Positions 4,527 to 28,584 of a DNA stretch of 45,911 bases are shown piece by piece. The stretch is from Alphaproteobacteria bacterium. Its GTDB lineage: Bacteria; Pseudomonadota; Alphaproteobacteria; Micropepsales; Micropepsaceae. The position numbers were made by a program, and so were the translations under genes. How positions within the stretch are numbered: the first letter of the stretch is position 1; each line of letters begins with the position of its first letter. The DNA is taken from NCBI GenBank assembly GCA_947467345.1, contig CANIHD010000022.1, forward strand, positions 1-45,911, read 5' to 3'. The notes under the pieces are model-generated. The model had not been told where the DNA came from, ran no database searches, and was given only the letters and a program-made list of their open reading frames with translations.

Positions 4527-5825
4527 TTAAATCTTCGCTGCGCCCTGCCGTAGCTCAGACTGAAGCTTTTCTACGTCCACGGCATTTTCAATGCGCGCGA
4601 TCACGATGGTCGCAAGCGCGTTGCCGAGAACGTTGACGGGTACGAAAGCCGACGACAGCAGGCGATGGACGCCGAGAATAAGCGCAGCGCTGGCGACCGG
4701 AATTGTTCCGGTTGCAGCCAACGTGGATGTGAGCACGACAATCGCGGAACCCGCGACGCCTGCGCCGCCCTTAGAAGTGAAGAGCATGATCGCGAGCAGG
4801 CCGAGTTGCTGTCCGATGGACAGATCGAGCCCAACGGCCTGTGCCAGGAAGAGAGAGGCCGTCGCGAAATAGAGGCAGGTGCCGTCGTGGTTGAAGGCGT
4901 AGCCCGACGGCAACACGAGCGCGACGACAGGTTCATCGACACCAAGTTGCGTCAGCTTTGCATTCAGGCGCGGAAACACGGATTCGCTTGAACTCGTTCC
5001 CACGACGATCATCAATTCCGCCGCGAAATAACGGATCAGGCGAAACAGGTTGATGCCGAACCACCAAGCGATGGGCCACAGCACCAGCACAACGAATAGA
5101 ACGCAGCAGAGGTAAAACGTGCCGACCAGCTTGCCGAGCGAGAGCAGCGATTCAGGTCCAAACCGTGCCACCGTAAATCCGATGGCGCCGAAGGCGCCGA
5201 TGGGCGCCACATACATTACGAAGCCGATGATCTTGAAGAGGACGAGCGTCACGGTGTGAATGCCGTCGAGCATCGGCTTGCCCTTCGCGCCGATGGCGAG
5301 CAGGCCGAAGGCAAACATGACCGAGAAAACCAATACCGGAATCACGTCGCCATCGGCGAAGGCGCCGATAGCGCTGGTGGGAACCAAAGAGAGTAGGAAG
5401 GGTCCGAACCCAACCGGGTGAGCGTCAGCTTCCGCCGTCGCAACATCAGCGCTCGCGAGCGTGGCCGGATCGATGTTCATGCCGGCGCCCGGCTGCAGCA
5501 CGTTCACCACCACGAGGCCGAGTATCAGGGCAAATGTCGTCACTATCTCGAAATAGATCAGCGCCTTGATGGCAACGCGCCCGACCTTCTTTGCTTCGCC
5601 TGCGCTGGCAATGCCGTGAACCACCGTGCAGAAAATGAGGGGCGCGACGACCATCCGCACCAATTGGATGAAGAGATCGCCCAGCGGTTTCAGCGTGTTG
5701 GCGCTTTGCGGCCAAATATACCCGACCAGCGCGCCGAGCAGCATCGCACTGAGAATCTGTACCGAGAGATCGCGATAGAGTGGACGACGGCGGTGCGGCG
5801 CGATTTCGGCGGTGGCAGCGCTCAT
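4527..5825 (-). CDS. DctA-fold (DAACS family) cation:organic acid symporter, altered substrate site
   Basis: This 432-residue inner-membrane protein belongs to the dicarboxylate/amino acid:cation symporter family. Recognisable parts are the serine-rich hairpin (GTSSSESVFPRL), the FNHDGTCLYF segment in place of DctA FNLDGT, the second hairpin TSKGGAGVAGSA, and the last substrate-binding helix ending NVLGNALATIVIARIENAVD. I chose the ATG at 5825, preceded by AAGGA, rather than one 15 codons upstream. In the last helix, E. coli DctA has D-R-F-M-S-E-A-R before the conserved N. Here the corresponding residues are H-R-L-L-S-S-A-F, so both the cation/substrate Asp and the carboxylate-binding Arg are gone. 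A C4-dicarboxylate is therefore doubtful as substrate. It lies 10 bases after the decarboxylase-like gene and is probably cotranscribed with it. Confidence 0.85.
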   Translation of the reverse strand: MSAATAEIAPHRRRPLYRDLSVQILSAMLLGALVGYIWPQSANTLKPLGDLFIQLVRMVVAPLIFCTVVHGIASAGEAKKVGRVAIKALIYFEIVTTFALILGLVVVNVLQPGAGMNIDPATLASADVATAEADAHPVGFGPFLLSLVPTSAIGAFADGDVIPVLVFSVMFAFGLLAIGAKGKPMLDGIHTVTLVLFKIIGFVMYVAPIGAFGAIGFTVARFGPESLLSLGKLVGTFYLCCVLFVVLVLWPIAWWFGINLFRLIRYFAAELMIVVGTSSSESVFPRLNAKLTQLGVDEPVVALVLPSGYAFNHDGTCLYFATASLFLAQAVGLDLSIGQQLGLLAIMLFTSKGGAGVAGSAIVVLTSTLAATGTIPVASAALILGVHRLLSSAFVPVNVLGNALATIVIARIENAVDVEKLQSELRQGAAKI

Positions 5826-5835
5826 CCTGTTTTCC

Positions 5836-6735
5836 TTATGCTCCGTCGACGCCGAGGATGCGCATGGCATCAGCGAAAAGTTCGTCCGCCGAGAACCGTT
5901 TCGGGATGAGACCTTGATGGAATGCGTTGTTCACTAGTTTTTCCAGCGAGCGGCTGACGGCGCCGATGCCGAAACGCAAAGGATCTTCCGCGCCGGTGGG
6001 CAGCGACGTGGCTGCTGCGCGGCTCTCCTTGAGGATGCGATAGAGTTCGCGAACCGCGTCAGGCCGTGACTTCACAATCGACTCGCGGACCACCGCGAGA
6101 TGATTGATCGGCACGCCGCCGCTGCGGGTGGCCCAGGCGCGCCCCGTCGCTTCGTGATCGGGGATGAGATGCTTCAACGGGCCTTCTTCGGCAACATCGC
6201 CGAGAATGGCCGCATCGATCTCACCGTCGAGCAGCATCTGTTTGATGACTTTGCCTTCACCTGCGCGCTCCACATTCGGCGGATCGCGATATTCGGCGAG
6301 GTGCGGGTCCTCGAAGGTGACCCAGGTCACGCCCTTAAGATCGATGCCGTAATCCTCCGCGAGAAAACCGCGAACCCAAGCGCCTGTCGTTTGCGTGTAG
6401 GCGCGCACGCCAACGCGCTTGCCGTTGAGGTCGCGCGCAGTCAGTGGGCCTTTGGCGGAATTGTAAAAGATGGTGTGGTGCTGGTTGCGGCCGACAATGG
6501 TGGCCGGCAGAAGCACATAAGGTTTGCCGTAGATTTTCGCCTGCAAGAAGGTGACGACGGCGAGCTCGCCGAAATCATATTTCTGATCGCGTACCATCGC
6601 TTTGAATTGCGTGTTCGCGACCTTTACTTCGAAAAAATCGAAGTTCACGAGCGGCGATGAAACCTTGCCGCTTTTCAGCGCGAGCGTATTGGGATGATTG
6701 CCGAGAAGGGAATGCAGTGTTACGGGGTCGGACAT
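5836..6735 (-). CDS. 4,5-dihydroxyphthalate decarboxylase-like protein (periplasmic-binding-protein fold, no signal peptide)
   Basis: The 299-residue protein resembles the Pht5/4,5-dihydroxyphthalate decarboxylase group, which shares the type-2 periplasmic-binding fold with NMT1/ThiY proteins. It has the typical order of an F-x2-M-V-R-D-x2-Y-D-F-G-E segment near residue 50, LNGKRVGVRAYTQTTGAW near 110, and a GEIDAAILGD segment near 180. There is no signal peptide or lipobox, which argues for a cytoplasmic enzyme rather than a transport receptor. The ATG at 6735 has AGGA ten bases upstream; a start 51 codons earlier would overlap the previous gene heavily. It sits between an amidohydrolase (8 bases upstream) and a DctA-fold transporter (10 bases downstream). 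Substrate unknown; decarboxylation of an aromatic acid is an inference from family. Confidence 0.65.
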   Translation of the reverse strand: MSDPVTLHSLLGNHPNTLALKSGKVSSPLVNFDFFEVKVANTQFKAMVRDQKYDFGELAVVTFLQAKIYGKPYVLLPATIVGRNQHHTIFYNSAKGPLTARDLNGKRVGVRAYTQTTGAWVRGFLAEDYGIDLKGVTWVTFEDPHLAEYRDPPNVERAGEGKVIKQMLLDGEIDAAILGDVAEEGPLKHLIPDHEATGRAWATRSGGVPINHLAVVRESIVKSRPDAVRELYRILKESRAAATSLPTGAEDPLRFGIGAVSRSLEKLVNNAFHQGLIPKRFSADELFADAMRILGVDGA

Positions 6736-6743
6736 AATGATTC

Positions 6744-7595
6744 CTATGCAAGCGCCGGATACAGCACCTTGGCGGTGCCGGCGAAAATCCACTCGCGGTC
6801 GTGCGCCGGAAGGAAGGACAAGTTTTCCTGTGCCAATGCGACGAGCTGCGGGAGCGTGCGTTCCGACGCGGGGAAATTCGAACCCCAAGCAATGCGTGAA
6901 GCGCCAAAGTCAGACACGAGTCGTCCGAAGAATGTTTCAGGTGTGGCCTTGCCCTTATGCGCGCCTTCGAAATTGCGTTCGGTGGCTTTGAGAAAAACAT
7001 TCTTATAGGGCACGAGACTCCAAAGGCTGTCGGCGCCTTTATAAGGCGGGCCGTCTTCCTGCACCGGGCGTGCAAGATGATCGAGAACGACGCGCAATTT
7101 CGGAAAGCGGGTGATCAGATTTATGACCTGCGGAATGGCCTTGGCGGTCATCTGGAGCGCAACCGGAATATTCTTCTCCGCGGCGAGCGCCCAAGCGGGA
7201 AACGTCTCCGGTGAGTCGAGCCAATCGGCTTGTCCTGGCATCGTGCTGCCGGTGGTGAAGACGCGCATGCCGGTCATGCCTTTGCCGATCCAGCGGTTCA
7301 TTTCCACTGTCGCATTGGGCTGAATGATGTCGCAGGAAAATACGCCGGTGAAACGGTCGGGACGGGCGGCAATGGCATCGGCCACATAGGAGCTGTCGTG
7401 TCCGTAACACGTCGAAGCTTGCACCAGCGCGGCTTTGCGCACGCCGGCTTTGTCTTGCGCCGCAATCATTTGATCGATGCTGGTAGGGCGTTCGGCAGAC
7501 CAGTCCGATTGGTTGCCACCGATGGGCGCGCGCGGATAGCGCTTTTCGTCGGTGGAGATGATGTGCGGATGAATATCCAGAATGTCCAAATCCAC
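6744..7595 (-). CDS. Amidohydrolase family 2 (LigI-like TIM-barrel hydrolase)
   Basis: This 283-residue protein is a metal-dependent TIM-barrel hydrolase of the amidohydrolase_2 family, related to 2-pyrone-4,6-dicarboxylate lactonase and to dihydroxybenzoate decarboxylases. It opens with DIHPH (the HxH metal pair at about residues 8-10), has a central VVLDHLARP with the strand-end histidine, and a late RIAWGSNFP where lactonases of this family usually have W-G-T-D-W-P. The usual catalytic Asp is thus Asn here, which may matter for activity. The start is a GTG at 7595 with AAGGGGG just upstream. It is the first gene of a tight three-gene unit with the decarboxylase-like protein and the transporter. 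Exact reaction unknown. Confidence 0.75.
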   Translation of the reverse strand: MDLDILDIHPHIISTDEKRYPRAPIGGNQSDWSAERPTSIDQMIAAQDKAGVRKAALVQASTCYGHDSSYVADAIAARPDRFTGVFSCDIIQPNATVEMNRWIGKGMTGMRVFTTGSTMPGQADWLDSPETFPAWALAAEKNIPVALQMTAKAIPQVINLITRFPKLRVVLDHLARPVQEDGPPYKGADSLWSLVPYKNVFLKATERNFEGAHKGKATPETFFGRLVSDFGASRIAWGSNFPASERTLPQLVALAQENLSFLPAHDREWIFAGTAKVLYPALA

Positions 7596-22787: not shown

Positions 22788-23744
22788 TTAGGCGTGGGCT
22801 TCGCGCTTCGGATCGATGATCTTTTCCAATTTGCCGAGCACGCGCATGCAGGGCAGGACCTGTTCAACGGAACCGTTGGGTTGGCGCTTTTCTTTGATGG
22901 CGGCAATGAATTCACGGTCTTCCAACTCGATGCCGTCCATGGAGACATCGAGCTTGGACACGTCGATCGGGTTCTTCTTGCCGTCGACGAGATCGTCGTA
23001 ATAGGCGTTGTAGGTGCCGTTATCGCAGATGTAGCGGAAGTAAGAGCCGAGCGGCGCATCGTTGTTGAATGATAGCGACAACGTGCAGAGGGCGCCCGAT
23101 TTGGTCTTGAGCAGAATGCCCATATCCATCGCGATGTTGAGGTTGGGATCCTTCGGGCCCTGCACGGCGTAACAATCGATTACGTCTTCGCCGGTCTGGT
23201 ACATGAACAAATCCACCGTGTGACAGGCGTGGTGCCAGAGAAGATGGTCGGTCCAGCTTCTGGCGTTTCCGGCGGCGTTCTTATTGGTGCGGCGGAAGAA
23301 ATAGGTCTGCACATCCATTTGCTGGATCTTGAGTTCGCCCTTGCGAATGCGGCGATTGATCCATTGATGGCTGGGATTGAAGCGGCGGACATGGCCGGCC
23401 ATGGCGATGACGCCGGTTTCCTTGGCGATCTCGGCGATGCGTTCGGATTCTTCCACTGTGTCGGCAATCGGAATCTCGATGAGTACATGTTTACCGGCGC
23501 GCATCACCTGCTCGGCTTGGCTGAAATGCAGTTTGGTCGGTGTGGTGAGGATGACGGCGTCGGCGCGTTTGATGCCTTCACCGAGATCGTTGCCCCAATG
23601 CTTGATGCCGTATTTCTTGGCGACCTCTTCGCTGCCTGCCGGATTGCCGCCGATCAGCGAGGTGATCTCAACGCCATCAATGCGTTTCAGCGCGTCCAGA
23701 TGTTTCTGACCGAAAGCGCCTTGTCCGGCGACGCAGATTTTCAT
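22788..23744 (-). CDS. ligC: 4-carboxy-2-hydroxymuconate-6-semialdehyde dehydrogenase LigC
   Basis: LigC oxidises the ring-fission product of protocatechuate 4,5-dioxygenase, as its cyclic hemiacetal, to 2-pyrone-4,6-dicarboxylate with NAD(P). At 318 residues it has the size of known LigC and belongs to the Gfo/Idh/MocA group, not to the aldehyde dehydrogenases. The N-terminal Rossmann motif is VAGQGAFGQKHLDAL, with EIPIADTVEES and the catalytic-domain segment WHHACHTVDLF following. GAGGAG precedes the ATG. Position directly after ligAB supports the assignment. Confidence 0.93.
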   Translation of the reverse strand: MKICVAGQGAFGQKHLDALKRIDGVEITSLIGGNPAGSEEVAKKYGIKHWGNDLGEGIKRADAVILTTPTKLHFSQAEQVMRAGKHVLIEIPIADTVEESERIAEIAKETGVIAMAGHVRRFNPSHQWINRRIRKGELKIQQMDVQTYFFRRTNKNAAGNARSWTDHLLWHHACHTVDLFMYQTGEDVIDCYAVQGPKDPNLNIAMDMGILLKTKSGALCTLSLSFNNDAPLGSYFRYICDNGTYNAYYDDLVDGKKNPIDVSKLDVSMDGIELEDREFIAAIKEKRQPNGSVEQVLPCMRVLGKLEKIIDPKREAHA

Positions 23745-23762
23745 GAGAGTCTCCTCAAACGA

Positions 23763-24608
23763 TTATGATTTTTTGTTCTCTAGGATGATGTGCCCAACGG
23801 CCGTGTTCGAGGCGGGCACATGATAGAAACGATGAATTTCGTTCACCTCGTCATCAAGCGCGCCGCGCATCACCTGCCACATCACGAGCTCAATGGCCTC
23901 GGCGCCGGCTTCGCGCAAATATTCGAGATGGGTGATGTCGAGATTGGCAGCGGGATCGTGCACGAGATTGTCGAGGAAGCGGTTGTCGAATTCTTTGTTG
24001 ATGAGTCCGGCGCGCTGACCAGCGAGCTGATGCGACATGCCACCGGTTCCGAAAATGACGACCTTCAGATCCTTATCGAAGGACTCGACGGCTTTGCGGA
24101 TCGCTTTGCCCAGCATGTAGCAACGTTTGCCGGTGGGCACGGGATAGACCACGACATTCACGATCACAGGAATGATCGGGCAGGGCCACTCAGATGGCTG
24201 GCCGAACATTACAGACAGCGGCACGGAGAGGCCGTGATCGACGGCCATCTTGTTGCAGATGCAAAGATCGAAATCGTCTTGCACCACGGACTGGATGATG
24301 TGCCAGGCGAGATCTGGATGGCCCTTGACCGGCGGCACGGGGCGCGGACCCCAGCCTTCATCGGCAATGGGGTACTCTTCGCCGGCGCCAACGCCGAAAG
24401 TTGGAAACATCTCCAGCGAGAAGGCTGAGGCATGGTCGTTGTAGACCGCGATGCAGACATCAGGCTTTAGCTTGGCGATCCATTCTTTAGACTTCTCGTA
24501 GCCTGCAAAGACCGGCTTCCAATAAGGTTCGCCCGTTCTGCCGTTGTCGAGCGCGGCGCCAATGGCCGGGACATGCGACGTGCCTACGCCTGCGACGATC
24601 TTAGCCAC
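23763..24608 (-). CDS. ligB: Protocatechuate 4,5-dioxygenase beta subunit LigB
   Basis: LigB is the Fe(II)-bearing catalytic subunit of the extradiol dioxygenase that cleaves protocatechuate between C4 and C5. The 281-residue protein keeps the metal and catalytic residues of the LigB superfamily in order: His12 (GVGTSH), His59 (YNDHA), His193 (GTGGMSH) and Glu240 (EAIELVMW). It starts with a GTG inside the end of ligA (eight-base overlap), so the two subunits are translationally coupled. Confidence 0.96.
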   Translation of the reverse strand: MAKIVAGVGTSHVPAIGAALDNGRTGEPYWKPVFAGYEKSKEWIAKLKPDVCIAVYNDHASAFSLEMFPTFGVGAGEEYPIADEGWGPRPVPPVKGHPDLAWHIIQSVVQDDFDLCICNKMAVDHGLSVPLSVMFGQPSEWPCPIIPVIVNVVVYPVPTGKRCYMLGKAIRKAVESFDKDLKVVIFGTGGMSHQLAGQRAGLINKEFDNRFLDNLVHDPAANLDITHLEYLREAGAEAIELVMWQVMRGALDDEVNEIHRFYHVPASNTAVGHIILENKKS

Positions 24609-24999
24609 GGTTTTTCCACTCCGACTTGCTGCGATTGCCTTCGACGGAGCGCCCGCCTGCGAGCATCATCTGCAGATATTCTTCTTGGCTGTTCGCCGAC
24701 ATCTTGGCCGCCACTTGCTGAAACGAAAGTCCATCGGTGGCTGCCAGCTTGCCGGTGAAATAGATATTGCCGCCGAGATTGATCATCGCGTTCCAATCGC
24801 GGCTGAGAATGGCCTTCGCCTGCGCTTCCGTCATTGGGAATTGCTTCAGATATTCGGCTTCGTTGGCTTTGAAAGCGACGCGGTTCTCCGGCTTCATCAA
24901 CGTCATGCAGAACATATTGAGGTGATATCCCTGCCGAGCGCGGTCCATGTCGAACACGACCGTGCCGGGAATATCTTCATAGGCGGCGTTGATCGGCAT
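24601..24999 (-). CDS. ligA: Protocatechuate 4,5-dioxygenase alpha subunit LigA
   Basis: The small subunit of the 4,5-dioxygenase, 132 residues, all helical and lacking metal ligands. It contributes part of the active-site lid over LigB. Family features include IPGTVVFDMDRARQGYHLNMFCMTLMKPENR at the start of the fold (quoted residues begin near 10), and DWNAMINLGGNIYFTGKL. GAGGGA precedes the ATG. It starts seven bases after ligI and overlaps ligB. Confidence 0.96.
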   Translation of the reverse strand: MPINAAYEDIPGTVVFDMDRARQGYHLNMFCMTLMKPENRVAFKANEAEYLKQFPMTEAQAKAILSRDWNAMINLGGNIYFTGKLAATDGLSFQQVAAKMSANSQEEYLQMMLAGGRSVEGNRSKSEWKNRG

Positions 25000-25006
25000 T
25001 ATTCCC

Positions 25007-25888
25007 TCACGTCCAATAAAGGTGCATTGGATTGTCGACCAAAAGCTTTTTTTGCAGTTCCGCGGTGCGGGCGATTTTCGGAATTACGTCCACCAGCATT
25101 CCGTCATCGGGCGCTTCCACCGACATGTTGGGATGCGGCCAATCCGTGCCCCAGAGGACGCGGGTGGGGAAGCGCTCCACCAAGGTGCGGGCATAGGGCA
25201 CGACGTCGTCGTAAGGCGCGCCAGCCACGGTGAGGCGCTCCGGACAACTGACTTTGCACCAGATATTTTGGTGCGCGTCCATCATCTTCAGGAAGCGCTG
25301 GAACTCGGGATGGTCGACGCCCTTTTTCACGTCGGGCCGCCCCATGTGATCGACGACCACTGTGGTGGGCAGCGACGTGAAGAACGATTCCAATTCCGGC
25401 AGGTCCGGCATCTCGAAGTACACAACGATGTGCCAGCCGAGCGGCGCGATGCGGGCGGCAAGGCGCTCCAATACGTCGCGCGGCGTGAAATCCACCAGCC
25501 GTTTGACGAAGTTGAACCGCACGCCCTTCACGCCCGCCCGGTTCATCTCCTGTAACTCTGAATCGCTGGTGTTTTCACCGATGACGGCGATGCCGCGCGC
25601 TTTGTCATTGGAATTCACCAGCGCATCGATGAGGGCTGCATTGTCGGTGCCGTGGCAACTCGCCTGCACGACAACGTTCTTGTCGAAGCCCAGATAGTCG
25701 CGCAGTGCGAAGAGCTTTTCCTTCGGTGCATCGACGGGCGTGTATTTGCGCTCCGGCGCGTAAGGAAATCTATTTGGCGGACCGAAGACGTGACAATGCG
25801 CATCCACCGCGCCCGCCGGAACCTTGAAAGAAGGTTTCGACGGGTTGGGGTGAAACGGTATGTAGGGCGGATTGGCGGGTTTGGTCAT
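25007..25888 (-). CDS. ligI: 2-pyrone-4,6-dicarboxylate lactonase LigI
   Basis: LigI hydrolyses 2-pyrone-4,6-dicarboxylate to 4-oxalomesaconate. It is one of the few amidohydrolase-superfamily members that work without a metal. The 293-residue length equals that of known LigI. It has V-D-A-H-C-H at residues 29-33, VVDHMGRPD near 181, and WGTDWPHPN with the catalytic Asp at 249. It lies 16 bases after ligJ in the operon. Confidence 0.95.
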   Translation of the reverse strand: MTKPANPPYIPFHPNPSKPSFKVPAGAVDAHCHVFGPPNRFPYAPERKYTPVDAPKEKLFALRDYLGFDKNVVVQASCHGTDNAALIDALVNSNDKARGIAVIGENTSDSELQEMNRAGVKGVRFNFVKRLVDFTPRDVLERLAARIAPLGWHIVVYFEMPDLPELESFFTSLPTTVVVDHMGRPDVKKGVDHPEFQRFLKMMDAHQNIWCKVSCPERLTVAGAPYDDVVPYARTLVERFPTRVLWGTDWPHPNMSVEAPDDGMLVDVIPKIARTAELQKKLLVDNPMHLYWT

Positions 25889-25904
25889 CGAGAAAGACTA
25901 TCCT

Positions 25905-26939
25905 TTAGTTCACCGAAATCCCGCGTTTATCTAGCGTCGCTTTGAGGCGTGGATAGGCCTTGAGCGCATTGGTGAGGAAGATCTTCTTCTTGTCAGCGGC
26001 GCTGAGCGGCAACGCTTCCACATAACGGCGCGTGTCGTCGTATTCATGCCCCGTCGTCGGATCGATGCCCTTCACGGCGCCCAACATTTCGGAAGCGAAC
26101 AGGACATTATCGACCGGCACGACCTTGGCGAGAAGATCGATGCCCGGCTGGTGATAGACGCAGGTGTCGAAATAGAGATTGTCGCCCATCATTTCAGGCA
26201 GTGTCGGACGGTTGAGGTTTTGCGCTAGACCGCGATAGCGGCCCCAATGGAACGGCGCGGCGCCGCCGCCATGTGGAATGATCATCTTCAGTTTCGGGAA
26301 GTCCTTGAAGAGATCGGCCTGGATGAACTGCATGAAGGCGGTCGTATCGGCGTTGATGTAATGCGCGCCGGTGGTATGGAAGGCCGGATTGCACGAGGCG
26401 CTAACATGGACCATTGCCGGCACGTCGAGCTCTACGAGCTTCTCATAAATCGGATACCAATAGCGGTCGGTTAGCGGCGGCGCCGTCCAATGACCGCCGG
26501 ACGGATCGGGATTGAGATTGCAGCCGACGAAGCCTAGCTCGTTCACGCAGCGCTCCAATTCGGGGATACAGTTTTCCGGCGCAACGCCTGGGCTTTGCGG
26601 CAATTGGGCGACGCCGATGAAGTTCTTCGGGAAAAGCTGCGTGACGCGATAGATGCAATCATTTGAAAGGCGCGACCACACGCGGCTGGTTTCTTCATTG
26701 CCGATATGGTGTCCCATGCCGGCGGCGCGCGGCGAGAAGATGGTGAGATTGGTGCCGCGCTCGCGCTGAATGCGAAGCTGATTGCCTTCGATGCTGCTGC
26801 GGAATTCGTCGTCGGTGATTTTCACGGTGTCCGGCGAGGGGGGAGGGGCTTTGTCCTTCAACGCCGACTGCTGCTTCTGGCGGAATTCGATCAGCGGCTT
26901 CGGTTCGGTGGTGTAATGACCATGGCAGTCGATAATCAT
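25905..26939 (-). CDS. ligJ: 4-oxalomesaconate hydratase LigJ
   Basis: LigJ adds water to the oxalomesaconate tautomer to give 4-carboxy-4-hydroxy-2-oxoadipate. The 344-residue zinc-dependent amidohydrolase-fold enzyme opens with IIDCHGHYTT (metal histidines 6 and 8) and has MVHVSASCNP, IIPHGGGAAPFHWGR and LFASEMLGAVKG, as in known LigJ. Its ATG overlaps the TGA of the upstream dehydrogenase-like gene (ATGA), which indicates translational coupling of the two. Confidence 0.95.
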   Translation of the reverse strand: MIIDCHGHYTTEPKPLIEFRQKQQSALKDKAPPPSPDTVKITDDEFRSSIEGNQLRIQRERGTNLTIFSPRAAGMGHHIGNEETSRVWSRLSNDCIYRVTQLFPKNFIGVAQLPQSPGVAPENCIPELERCVNELGFVGCNLNPDPSGGHWTAPPLTDRYWYPIYEKLVELDVPAMVHVSASCNPAFHTTGAHYINADTTAFMQFIQADLFKDFPKLKMIIPHGGGAAPFHWGRYRGLAQNLNRPTLPEMMGDNLYFDTCVYHQPGIDLLAKVVPVDNVLFASEMLGAVKGIDPTTGHEYDDTRRYVEALPLSAADKKKIFLTNALKAYPRLKATLDKRGISVN

Positions 26940-27850
26940 GGAAACTCCCTCGCGATTGTGGGCGCTGCGGCGCCCCCTTGCTTGATACTGTGGTGAATGG
27001 CGTCCAACATGGCGCCGAGATCGTTTGCGTGAATGAGCGCTGCCTTATGCGGCGCGGAAATATCCTGGCGTTCGGCGGTGGCCATCGCCATCAAAGGCAT
27101 CACGCCGACTTCAGCGACGGTCTTTGCCGCTTCGCGCATTTCTTCGGCGCGGCGCTGCCCGTGTTCCAGCGCGCGTGAAATCATGTAGCGGGCAACGCGG
27201 TCCCAATCACCAACCGGCAAAAGATCGGATAACGAATTCAATACGGTTTTCTCGACGCCGTAAGCGCGCGCGGCCAGCATGGATTCGCTGAGCAACGCCT
27301 CCATGCCCTTGATCACAACGCTGCGGCACATTTTGGTGGCAGATGCCTGTCCGATCCGATCAGAGAAAACTTCGCCGATAAAGCCTAAAGGGCGCGCATG
27401 TTCGATGAAGGCGGCCGCGTGAGGTCCGCCGAGCAACATATAAGAGCCAACGCCCTTCGGGTTGATCGGCGTCATAACGGCGGCTTCGACATAACGACCG
27501 CGGCTCGCTTCCACATGTGCGGCGCAGGCCTGCTTCATCCCGGGCGAAACCGAATTCACGTCGAGATAAAATGCGTCGTTTGCCAGATGCGGCGCCACCT
27601 GCTTGGCGGCATCTAAATCGGCGGCTGCGGTCACGGCGACGATGACCAATTCGGCATCGTTCACAGCATCTTCGTGGCTCAACGCCTTACGAACCGGAAT
27701 GGATTTCGCAGCGCGCGCAGGCGCCGAATCGGGTGTGGCAAAGAGAAGATCGAACGCGGAGACATGCGCGCCAGCCTTGATCAGATCGGGAGCGAGCGTT
27801 TGGCCCACCTCACCGAAGCCGATCAACGCGATGCGCGAGAACGCGGTCAC
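26936..27850 (-). CDS. NAD(P)-binding dehydrogenase-like protein with DUF1932 domain, in the lig operon
   Basis: A 304-residue protein of the 6-phosphogluconate/beta-hydroxyacid dehydrogenase fold. The N-terminal nucleotide motif is IALIGFGEVGQTLAPDL (residues 7-23), with VIVAVTAAADLDA following, and the C-terminal helical domain resembles DUF1932 (SATKMCRSVVIKGMEALLSE). The lysine in this block sits close to where beta-hydroxyacid dehydrogenases have their catalytic Lys. The start is a GTG with GGAGAG upstream. It lies between ligK and ligJ and overlaps ligJ, so it is a fixed part of the operon. No known step of the protocatechuate 4,5 pathway needs such a dehydrogenase, while the tautomerase step has no candidate here. 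Confidence 0.85.
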   Translation of the reverse strand: MTAFSRIALIGFGEVGQTLAPDLIKAGAHVSAFDLLFATPDSAPARAAKSIPVRKALSHEDAVNDAELVIVAVTAAADLDAAKQVAPHLANDAFYLDVNSVSPGMKQACAAHVEASRGRYVEAAVMTPINPKGVGSYMLLGGPHAAAFIEHARPLGFIGEVFSDRIGQASATKMCRSVVIKGMEALLSESMLAARAYGVEKTVLNSLSDLLPVGDWDRVARYMISRALEHGQRRAEEMREAAKTVAEVGVMPLMAMATAERQDISAPHKAALIHANDLGAMLDAIHHSIKQGGAAAPTIAREFP

Positions 27851-27897
27851 GCCGCGCTCTCCGCCGCTTCACATGTGCAATACCGGAATTTCTGCAA

Positions 27898-28584
27898 TCA
27901 ATCCTCCGGCCCATCGACATATTTCAGGCCCTTATCGGCAAGACGCTGACGCCAGCCATACATGTCGAGACCCAGTTCGCCCGCAATATAGCGTTTGCGG
28001 CTTTTGGCTTCTTTCTCTTCGCGGTCGATGCTTTTCTGCACGATGTCGGCAGCTTCGTCCTTGCGCACGCAGACGACGCCATCGTCATCGGCGACTATCA
28101 GATCGCCCGGATTAATGAGCTGACCAGCGCAGACCATCGGCCGGTTCACATTCGCGATGGTTTCTTTGACGGTGCCTTGCGCGAACACGGCTTTGGACCA
28201 AGCGGGGAATTTGTTTTCGGTCAGCTCGCGCACGTCGCGTACGCCGGCGTCGATGATGAGGCCGAGTACGCCGCGCGACTGCAGCGACGTGGCGAGGAGC
28301 TCACCGAAATATCCGTCTTCGCAAGGAGAGGTCGGGGCCACGATCAACACGTCGCCGGCCTGACACATTTCCACCGCGACATGGATCATCCAATTGTCGC
28401 CGGGCGGAACTTCGCAGGTGACGGCTGGGCCGGCGATATGGCAGGGGCGATAGATCGGCCGCATATAGGAGGCGAGGAGGCCTTTACGCCCCTGCGCCTC
28501 ATGGACGGTCGCGACCCCAATCTTGCCCAAGCGGGTGACAACCGCGGGGTCCACCCGGCGAATATTGCGAACGACCGTGCTCAT
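27898..28584 (-). CDS. ligK: 4-carboxy-4-hydroxy-2-oxoadipate aldolase LigK
   Basis: LigK cleaves 4-carboxy-4-hydroxy-2-oxoadipate into pyruvate and oxaloacetate, the last step of the pathway, and usually also decarboxylates oxaloacetate. At 228 residues it matches known LigK/ProA aldolases of the RraA-like fold. It has [37 protein letters not shown] and the metal/substrate strand [20 protein letters not shown] precedes the ATG. It is the first gene of the minus-strand lig operon, so the operon promoter should lie in 28585-28720. Confidence 0.95.

Follow-up and report, generated by a model that had tools for sequence, protein, structure and literature searches.

Transporters of the SDF/SLC1 family serve as a model for substrate specificity, and residue R397 of GltPh is treated as the specificity switch. 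R397 binds the side-chain carboxylate of the substrate, and D394 binds its amino group (PMC7682989; PMC12668577). In the aspartate-bound state D390 coordinates the guanidinium of R397 (PMC7682989), and M311 extends into the site at Na2 (PMC7682989; PMC12668577). Within the SDF family, R397 is the determinant of acidic versus neutral substrates (PMC12668577). Both the ASCT2-like GltPh R397C variant and Escherichia coli SstT lack the TM8 arginine, keep D394, and carry amino acids; in R397C with benzylcysteine, the benzyl ring can occupy the space of R397 (PMC5750217).

In the protocatechuate 4,5-cleavage pathway, LigI opens 2-pyrone-4,6-dicarboxylate (PDC) to 4-oxalomesaconate, LigJ and GalB hydrate the next intermediate, and LigK and GalC cleave the product (PMC12314914). 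In the literature consulted, the uptake systems named for acids of this pathway are of other types: PmdK; GalT; the tripartite TpiBA; and a TRAP system. Searches of an open-access library yielded no SDF-type transporter for aromatic acids or PDC, and no DctA beside a dihydroxyphthalate decarboxylase.

The gene described here lies in a window of 45,911 nucleotides, the whole stretch of alphaproteobacterial DNA that was analysed.

A DctA-fold transporter with altered pocket residues

The full-length reading frame (4527..5825, minus strand; ATG at 5825, stop at 4527) encodes a 432-residue protein of the SDF/DctA fold. The Pfam SDF model matches residues 20-411 with 323.5 bits (cut-off 27.9), and almost the entire protein can be aligned with E. 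coli DctA and with structures of the GltPh type. The sequence-only reading had taken the fold to be intact, and the AlphaFold model (pLDDT 79.2) agrees, with Z up to 46.6 against top-ranked GltPh relatives over 383-390 aligned residues. Homologs carry the annotation DctA. Two NCBIfam DctA models score below their cut-offs: NF002461 just below (509.9 bits, cut-off 513), and NF009587 at 456.2 bits against 570. The source genome holds a second SDF gene, a paralog with D390 and R397, on a separate contig. The fold and family are already known, but the specificity clade, a separate branch of DctA relatives to which the transporter belongs, appears uncharacterised.

Residues were aligned with GltPh-type proteins, DctA, GltP, SstT, and TcyP, and their roles assigned from the GltPh alignment together with published structures. 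TM8 reads A-L-I-L-G-V-H-R-L-L-S-S-A-F-V-P-V-N-V-L-G-N-A-L-A-T-I-V-I-A. The sequence-only reading had aligned this helix correctly with E. coli DctA, and the two substitutions that it drew from the alignment hold also against GltP and GltPh types: the aspartate after L-I-L-G (GltPh D390) is His387 (codon 4665..4667, minus strand), and the arginine four residues ahead of the conserved asparagine (R397) is Phe394 (codon 4644..4646, minus strand). A third change had been overlooked. In the TM7 motif N-H-D-G-T, His313 (codon 4887..4889, minus strand) occupies the position of GltPh M311, which is leucine in DctA.

The transporter and E. coli DctA (about 46-48% identity) have in common the fold, S394, N401, N405, and the HP1 signature (GltPh numbering for these pocket residues). 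They differ in that DctA has D390 and R397 in TM8, whereas the transporter carries histidines at 311 and 390, a phenylalanine at 397, and additional substitutions in the pocket. GltPh, GltTk, and the EAATs have the same fold as well, but rely on D394 and R397, both absent from the transporter (PMC12668577). At the D394 position stands Ser391, as in DctA, in place of the aspartate that serves the amino group in GltP, ASCT, and SstT carriers. Because this serine replaces D394, neutral amino acids were dismissed as cargo.

The sequence-only reading had the arginine hold the side-chain carboxylate and assigned the aspartate to the cation/substrate site. Its account of the arginine stands; that of the aspartate is incomplete, for D390 forms a salt bridge with R397 in GltPh. 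Because the two interact, the His390 and Phe397 substitutions remove a single pair and should not be counted as two independent losses. In brain transporters, the equivalent aspartate is said, in the title of one study, to have a cation role. A ring next to residue 397 is sterically plausible, since a benzyl group fits this space in GltPh R397C, although Phe394 itself fills part of it.

A single clade without the D390-R397 pair

Homologs formed a set of 212 distinct proteins, one of which was too short to score at positions 390 and 397. The remaining 211 comprised 141 with D/R, 41 with H/L, 27 with H/F, and two with H/M; none had a mixed state, with one residue kept and the other lost. The sequence-only reading had proposed a tree of homologs with the H...F pair. 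The maximum-likelihood tree, built from the first homolog set (42 later sequences, typed by residue only, stand outside it), makes the loss clade-wide: every H390 protein falls in one clade (support 100/100). This clade divides into two groups: HHF (100/99), with His311, His390, and Phe397, which includes the window's gene; and LHL (95/81), with H390 and L397 and no H311. The same groups were recovered from a tree without TM7-HP2-TM8, with LHL support falling to 75. In this sample, then, a single loss accounts for the missing pair, and the covariation of D390 and R397 represents one evolutionary event, not many.

Thirteen positions are nearly non-overlapping between HHF (n=18) and DctA-type (n=122) sequences. 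Ten of these lie in TM7, HP2, or TM8 (310, 313, 320, 358, 361, 362, 387, 392, 394, and 395, numbered as in the transporter), a clustering to which a simple binomial estimate, made without regard to uneven conservation, assigns 4e-5 to 2e-4. Both groups are altered at four of these positions: 358A; 361A; 387H; and the lost arginine at 394. Because His313 and Phe394 are found in HHF only, LHL looks like an intermediate state. N401, the gates, and the HP2 signature are kept across the HHF clade. A natural clade without R397 and D390, whose sister (H390/L397, no H311) is intermediate, provides an evolutionary series for pocket rewiring.

Of the six other genomes in the window's genus, four have an HHF member; the group is also present elsewhere in the Alphaproteobacteria, among Burkholderiales, and on a few contigs assigned to acidobacterial bins. 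Searches of 385 genomes across the class and 398 across the phylum gave no match exceeding 55% identity, apart from the source genome itself. Conservation in a monophyletic group that spans alphaproteobacteria, betaproteobacteria, and acidobacteria-binned contigs argues that the H390/F397 state is more than chance.

One HHF relative, in genome G008 (loci L179/L005), stands apart from all others with aspartate at 311 and tyrosine at 405. It is possibly drifting, or may have altered coupling.

Gene neighbourhoods of the HHF and LHL groups

Two genes precede the transporter gene on the same strand, with gaps of about 10 bases, and may be co-transcribed with it. AM (6744..7595, minus strand) is an Amidohydro_2 protein which Pfam and structure-sequence matches place as a distant relative of the PDC hydrolase LigI. 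DH (5836..6735, minus strand), whose stop codon lies 10 bases ahead of the transporter start, is related by sequence homology to 4,5-dihydroxyphthalate decarboxylase (PDB 9jp7; E 1.7e-17), its sole sequence relative in the PDB. No hydrophobic N-terminus is visible on DH. AM keeps the HxH and D-H residues of the LigI site, but the aspartate of WGTDWP is asparagine (WGSN), as in every HHF-linked AM inspected (window, L032-L045, L112, and L247-L256). A conserved, enzyme-like protein without the catalytic aspartate suggests a reaction different from that of LigI.

Searches with tblastn, on which all neighbour assignments at HHF, LHL, and control loci are based, place AM beside 26 of the 29 HHF genes. 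(One of the other three, L042, begins 288 bases into its contig and so cannot be judged.) An apparently complete DH accompanies 22 of the 29, and the order AM-DH-transporter is conserved across phyla. Ten loci of family f221, from Burkholderiales-type genomes, encode AM, DH, the transporter, and LigJ on one strand; LigK follows in nine of the ten when the loci are extended, and the tenth reaches its contig end. Three of the four transporter-LigJ gaps examined contain a porin-like reading frame, and at L247 LigJ comes directly after the transporter. Pfam likewise identifies a porin downstream of the transporter in L043 and L112. Several HHF loci have a LysR-type regulator upstream on the opposite strand.

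On the acidobacterial-bin contigs of L034 (4152-4352) and L036, AM and the transporter persist, but DH has either shrunk to a match of 67 residues or gone.

In the sister group, LHL genes have LigI, LigJ, a GalB-like PIG-L protein, LigK, or LigAB as neighbours at 30 of 37 loci (L051, L114, and L117, together with 27 of the 34 distinct ones that span 7 kb or more), and the LHL gene of genome G001 sits within a ligABCIJK cluster. No such neighbour was found, at the thresholds used, at any of 66 D390/R397 control loci, most of them with comparable flanks and drawn largely from taxa different from those of most LHL loci. Enzymes of the LigI-LigJ-LigK/GalB-GalC pathway, or related ones, are encoded beside both groups. 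Two weaker counter-cases should be set against this contrast. The own-genome D390/R397 paralog (L176 5373-9759, contig C1) has a DHPD-like gene of 25% identity next to it and an Amidohydro_2 gene nearby; a LigI-like gene (37%) is found 3.8 kb from one D390/R397 gene of G001.

Homologs of DH (46-54% identity to that of the window) occur in the LHL clusters L184, L186, L263, L266, L274, L280, and L283-L285, which also hold LigI, GalB-like, and LigK genes. DH might fill a step there.

The window itself contains a complete protocatechuate 4,5-cleavage cluster, identified by homology (22788-28584, minus strand throughout), 17 kb from the transporter gene rather than adjacent to it. It encodes a LigC-like protein, LigB (23763-24608), LigA (24604-24999), LigI (25007-25888; E 5e-105 to a solved PDC hydrolase), a LigJ-like amidohydrolase (25905-26939), a DUF1932 protein (26936-27850), and LigK (27898-28584). 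LigI was identified via solved structures; the NCBIfam matches included no model naming LigI or LigJ. No transporter gene lies inside this cluster, where related genomes have the LHL transporter.

Other genomes appear to have the lower pathway but no LigAB. No LigA match was found in the LHL genomes G785, G534, G767, and G835; G785, G534, and G835 have a single PF02900 match each (105-128 bits), which by their sequences look to be of the DODA/YgiD type. In the eleven HHF genomes, the search with PF02900 gave LigB-type matches of at least 200 bits in four and nothing above 140 bits in the other seven. Some LHL and HHF clusters therefore combine the lower pathway with an absence of LigAB, and the cargo, like PDC, might join the pathway downstream of ring cleavage. 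If it does, the gene context suggests PDC as the best candidate.

A ring diacid as candidate cargo

The best explanation, to which we give a probability of about 0.6, is that the transporter is an inner-membrane, elevator-type symporter of the SDF/DctA branch, with a pocket whose specificity has shifted from C4-dicarboxylates towards a planar ring acid of the protocatechuate-4,5-cleavage/PDC zone, most likely PDC or a close aromatic or pyrone di- or tricarboxylate. As in DctA, N401 and the hairpin tips would grip one carboxylate. With the D390-R397 pair gone and small residues in HP2 (T356A and G359A, GltPh numbering), the ring would find room beside F397, and His390 and His311 may meet the second carboxylate, carry a co-transported proton, or both. 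The neighbouring amidohydrolase and the DHPD-like protein would then process the cargo, and LigJ/LigK-type enzymes would yield pyruvate and oxaloacetate. What the HHF operon itself handles is less certain, because AM lacks the catalytic aspartate of LigI and the reaction of DH is putative; the three of 29 HHF genes with no AM neighbour also count against this explanation.

The sequence-only reading had predicted a different substrate, perhaps an aromatic or a mono-acid. Clade-wide loss of the pair and neighbours related to enzymes of aromatic and pyrone acids support a changed and aromatic-related cargo, but the mono-acid part is not supported. An aromatic mono-acid such as protocatechuate or hydroxybenzoate, with one carboxylate bound in the absence of R397 and Phe394 stacked on the ring, is a less likely alternative. 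Loss of R397 alone would favour it: a hydrophobic residue replaces this arginine in both HHF and LHL; the arginine decides between acidic and neutral substrates elsewhere in the family (PMC12668577); and certain LHL genes belong to full lig clusters that include LigAB, for which protocatechuate would be the entry compound. Yet comparable clusters occur in genomes without LigAB, and the sister clade is found in PDC clusters. A ring diacid is rated higher because the characterised proteins nearest to AM and DH use diacids (PDC and 4,5-dihydroxyphthalate), and because the HHF proteins have gained two histidines, specific to the clade, that could bind a carboxylate.

Automatic annotation would instead make this a C4-dicarboxylate transporter that tolerates loss of the pair, and the near-threshold score of 509.9 bits to an NCBIfam DctA model is in keeping with such a role, as are the DctA labels of its homologs. 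This appears improbable: D390 and R397 are invariant in the 141 DctA-type homologs; ten clade-specific changes fall in the pocket region; the neighbours are ring-acid enzymes; and the D390/R397 paralog of the same genome can cover C4-dicarboxylates. Even harder to sustain is the view that the protein has degenerated, or serves only in regulation as the partner of a sensor, and is no working carrier. E. coli DctA does double as co-regulator of DcuS, according to two reports (PMC8307970, PMC4280142), and the G008 relative has drifted at 311 and 405; however, N401, the gates, and the HP2 signature remain conserved in the clade, and the operon-like order with the enzymes is kept, in some loci with a porin and a LysR regulator.

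The ring-diacid reading can be extended, tentatively and at somewhat less than even odds, to the whole subfamily. HHF and LHL together would be dedicated to the lignin intermediate PDC and related ring diacids; a single loss of the D390-R397 pair would have opened the pocket, and the two HHF histidines would have taken over carboxylate binding and proton coupling. Were the cargo PDC or a similar ring diacid, an uptake system could be named for a lignin-derived polymer building block.

Lastly, the LysR-type regulators upstream in L037, L043, and L045 each have two HTH_1 matches and exceed 400 residues as called. The regulators beside the LHL genes of L051, L114, and L117 belong to the same sequence family.
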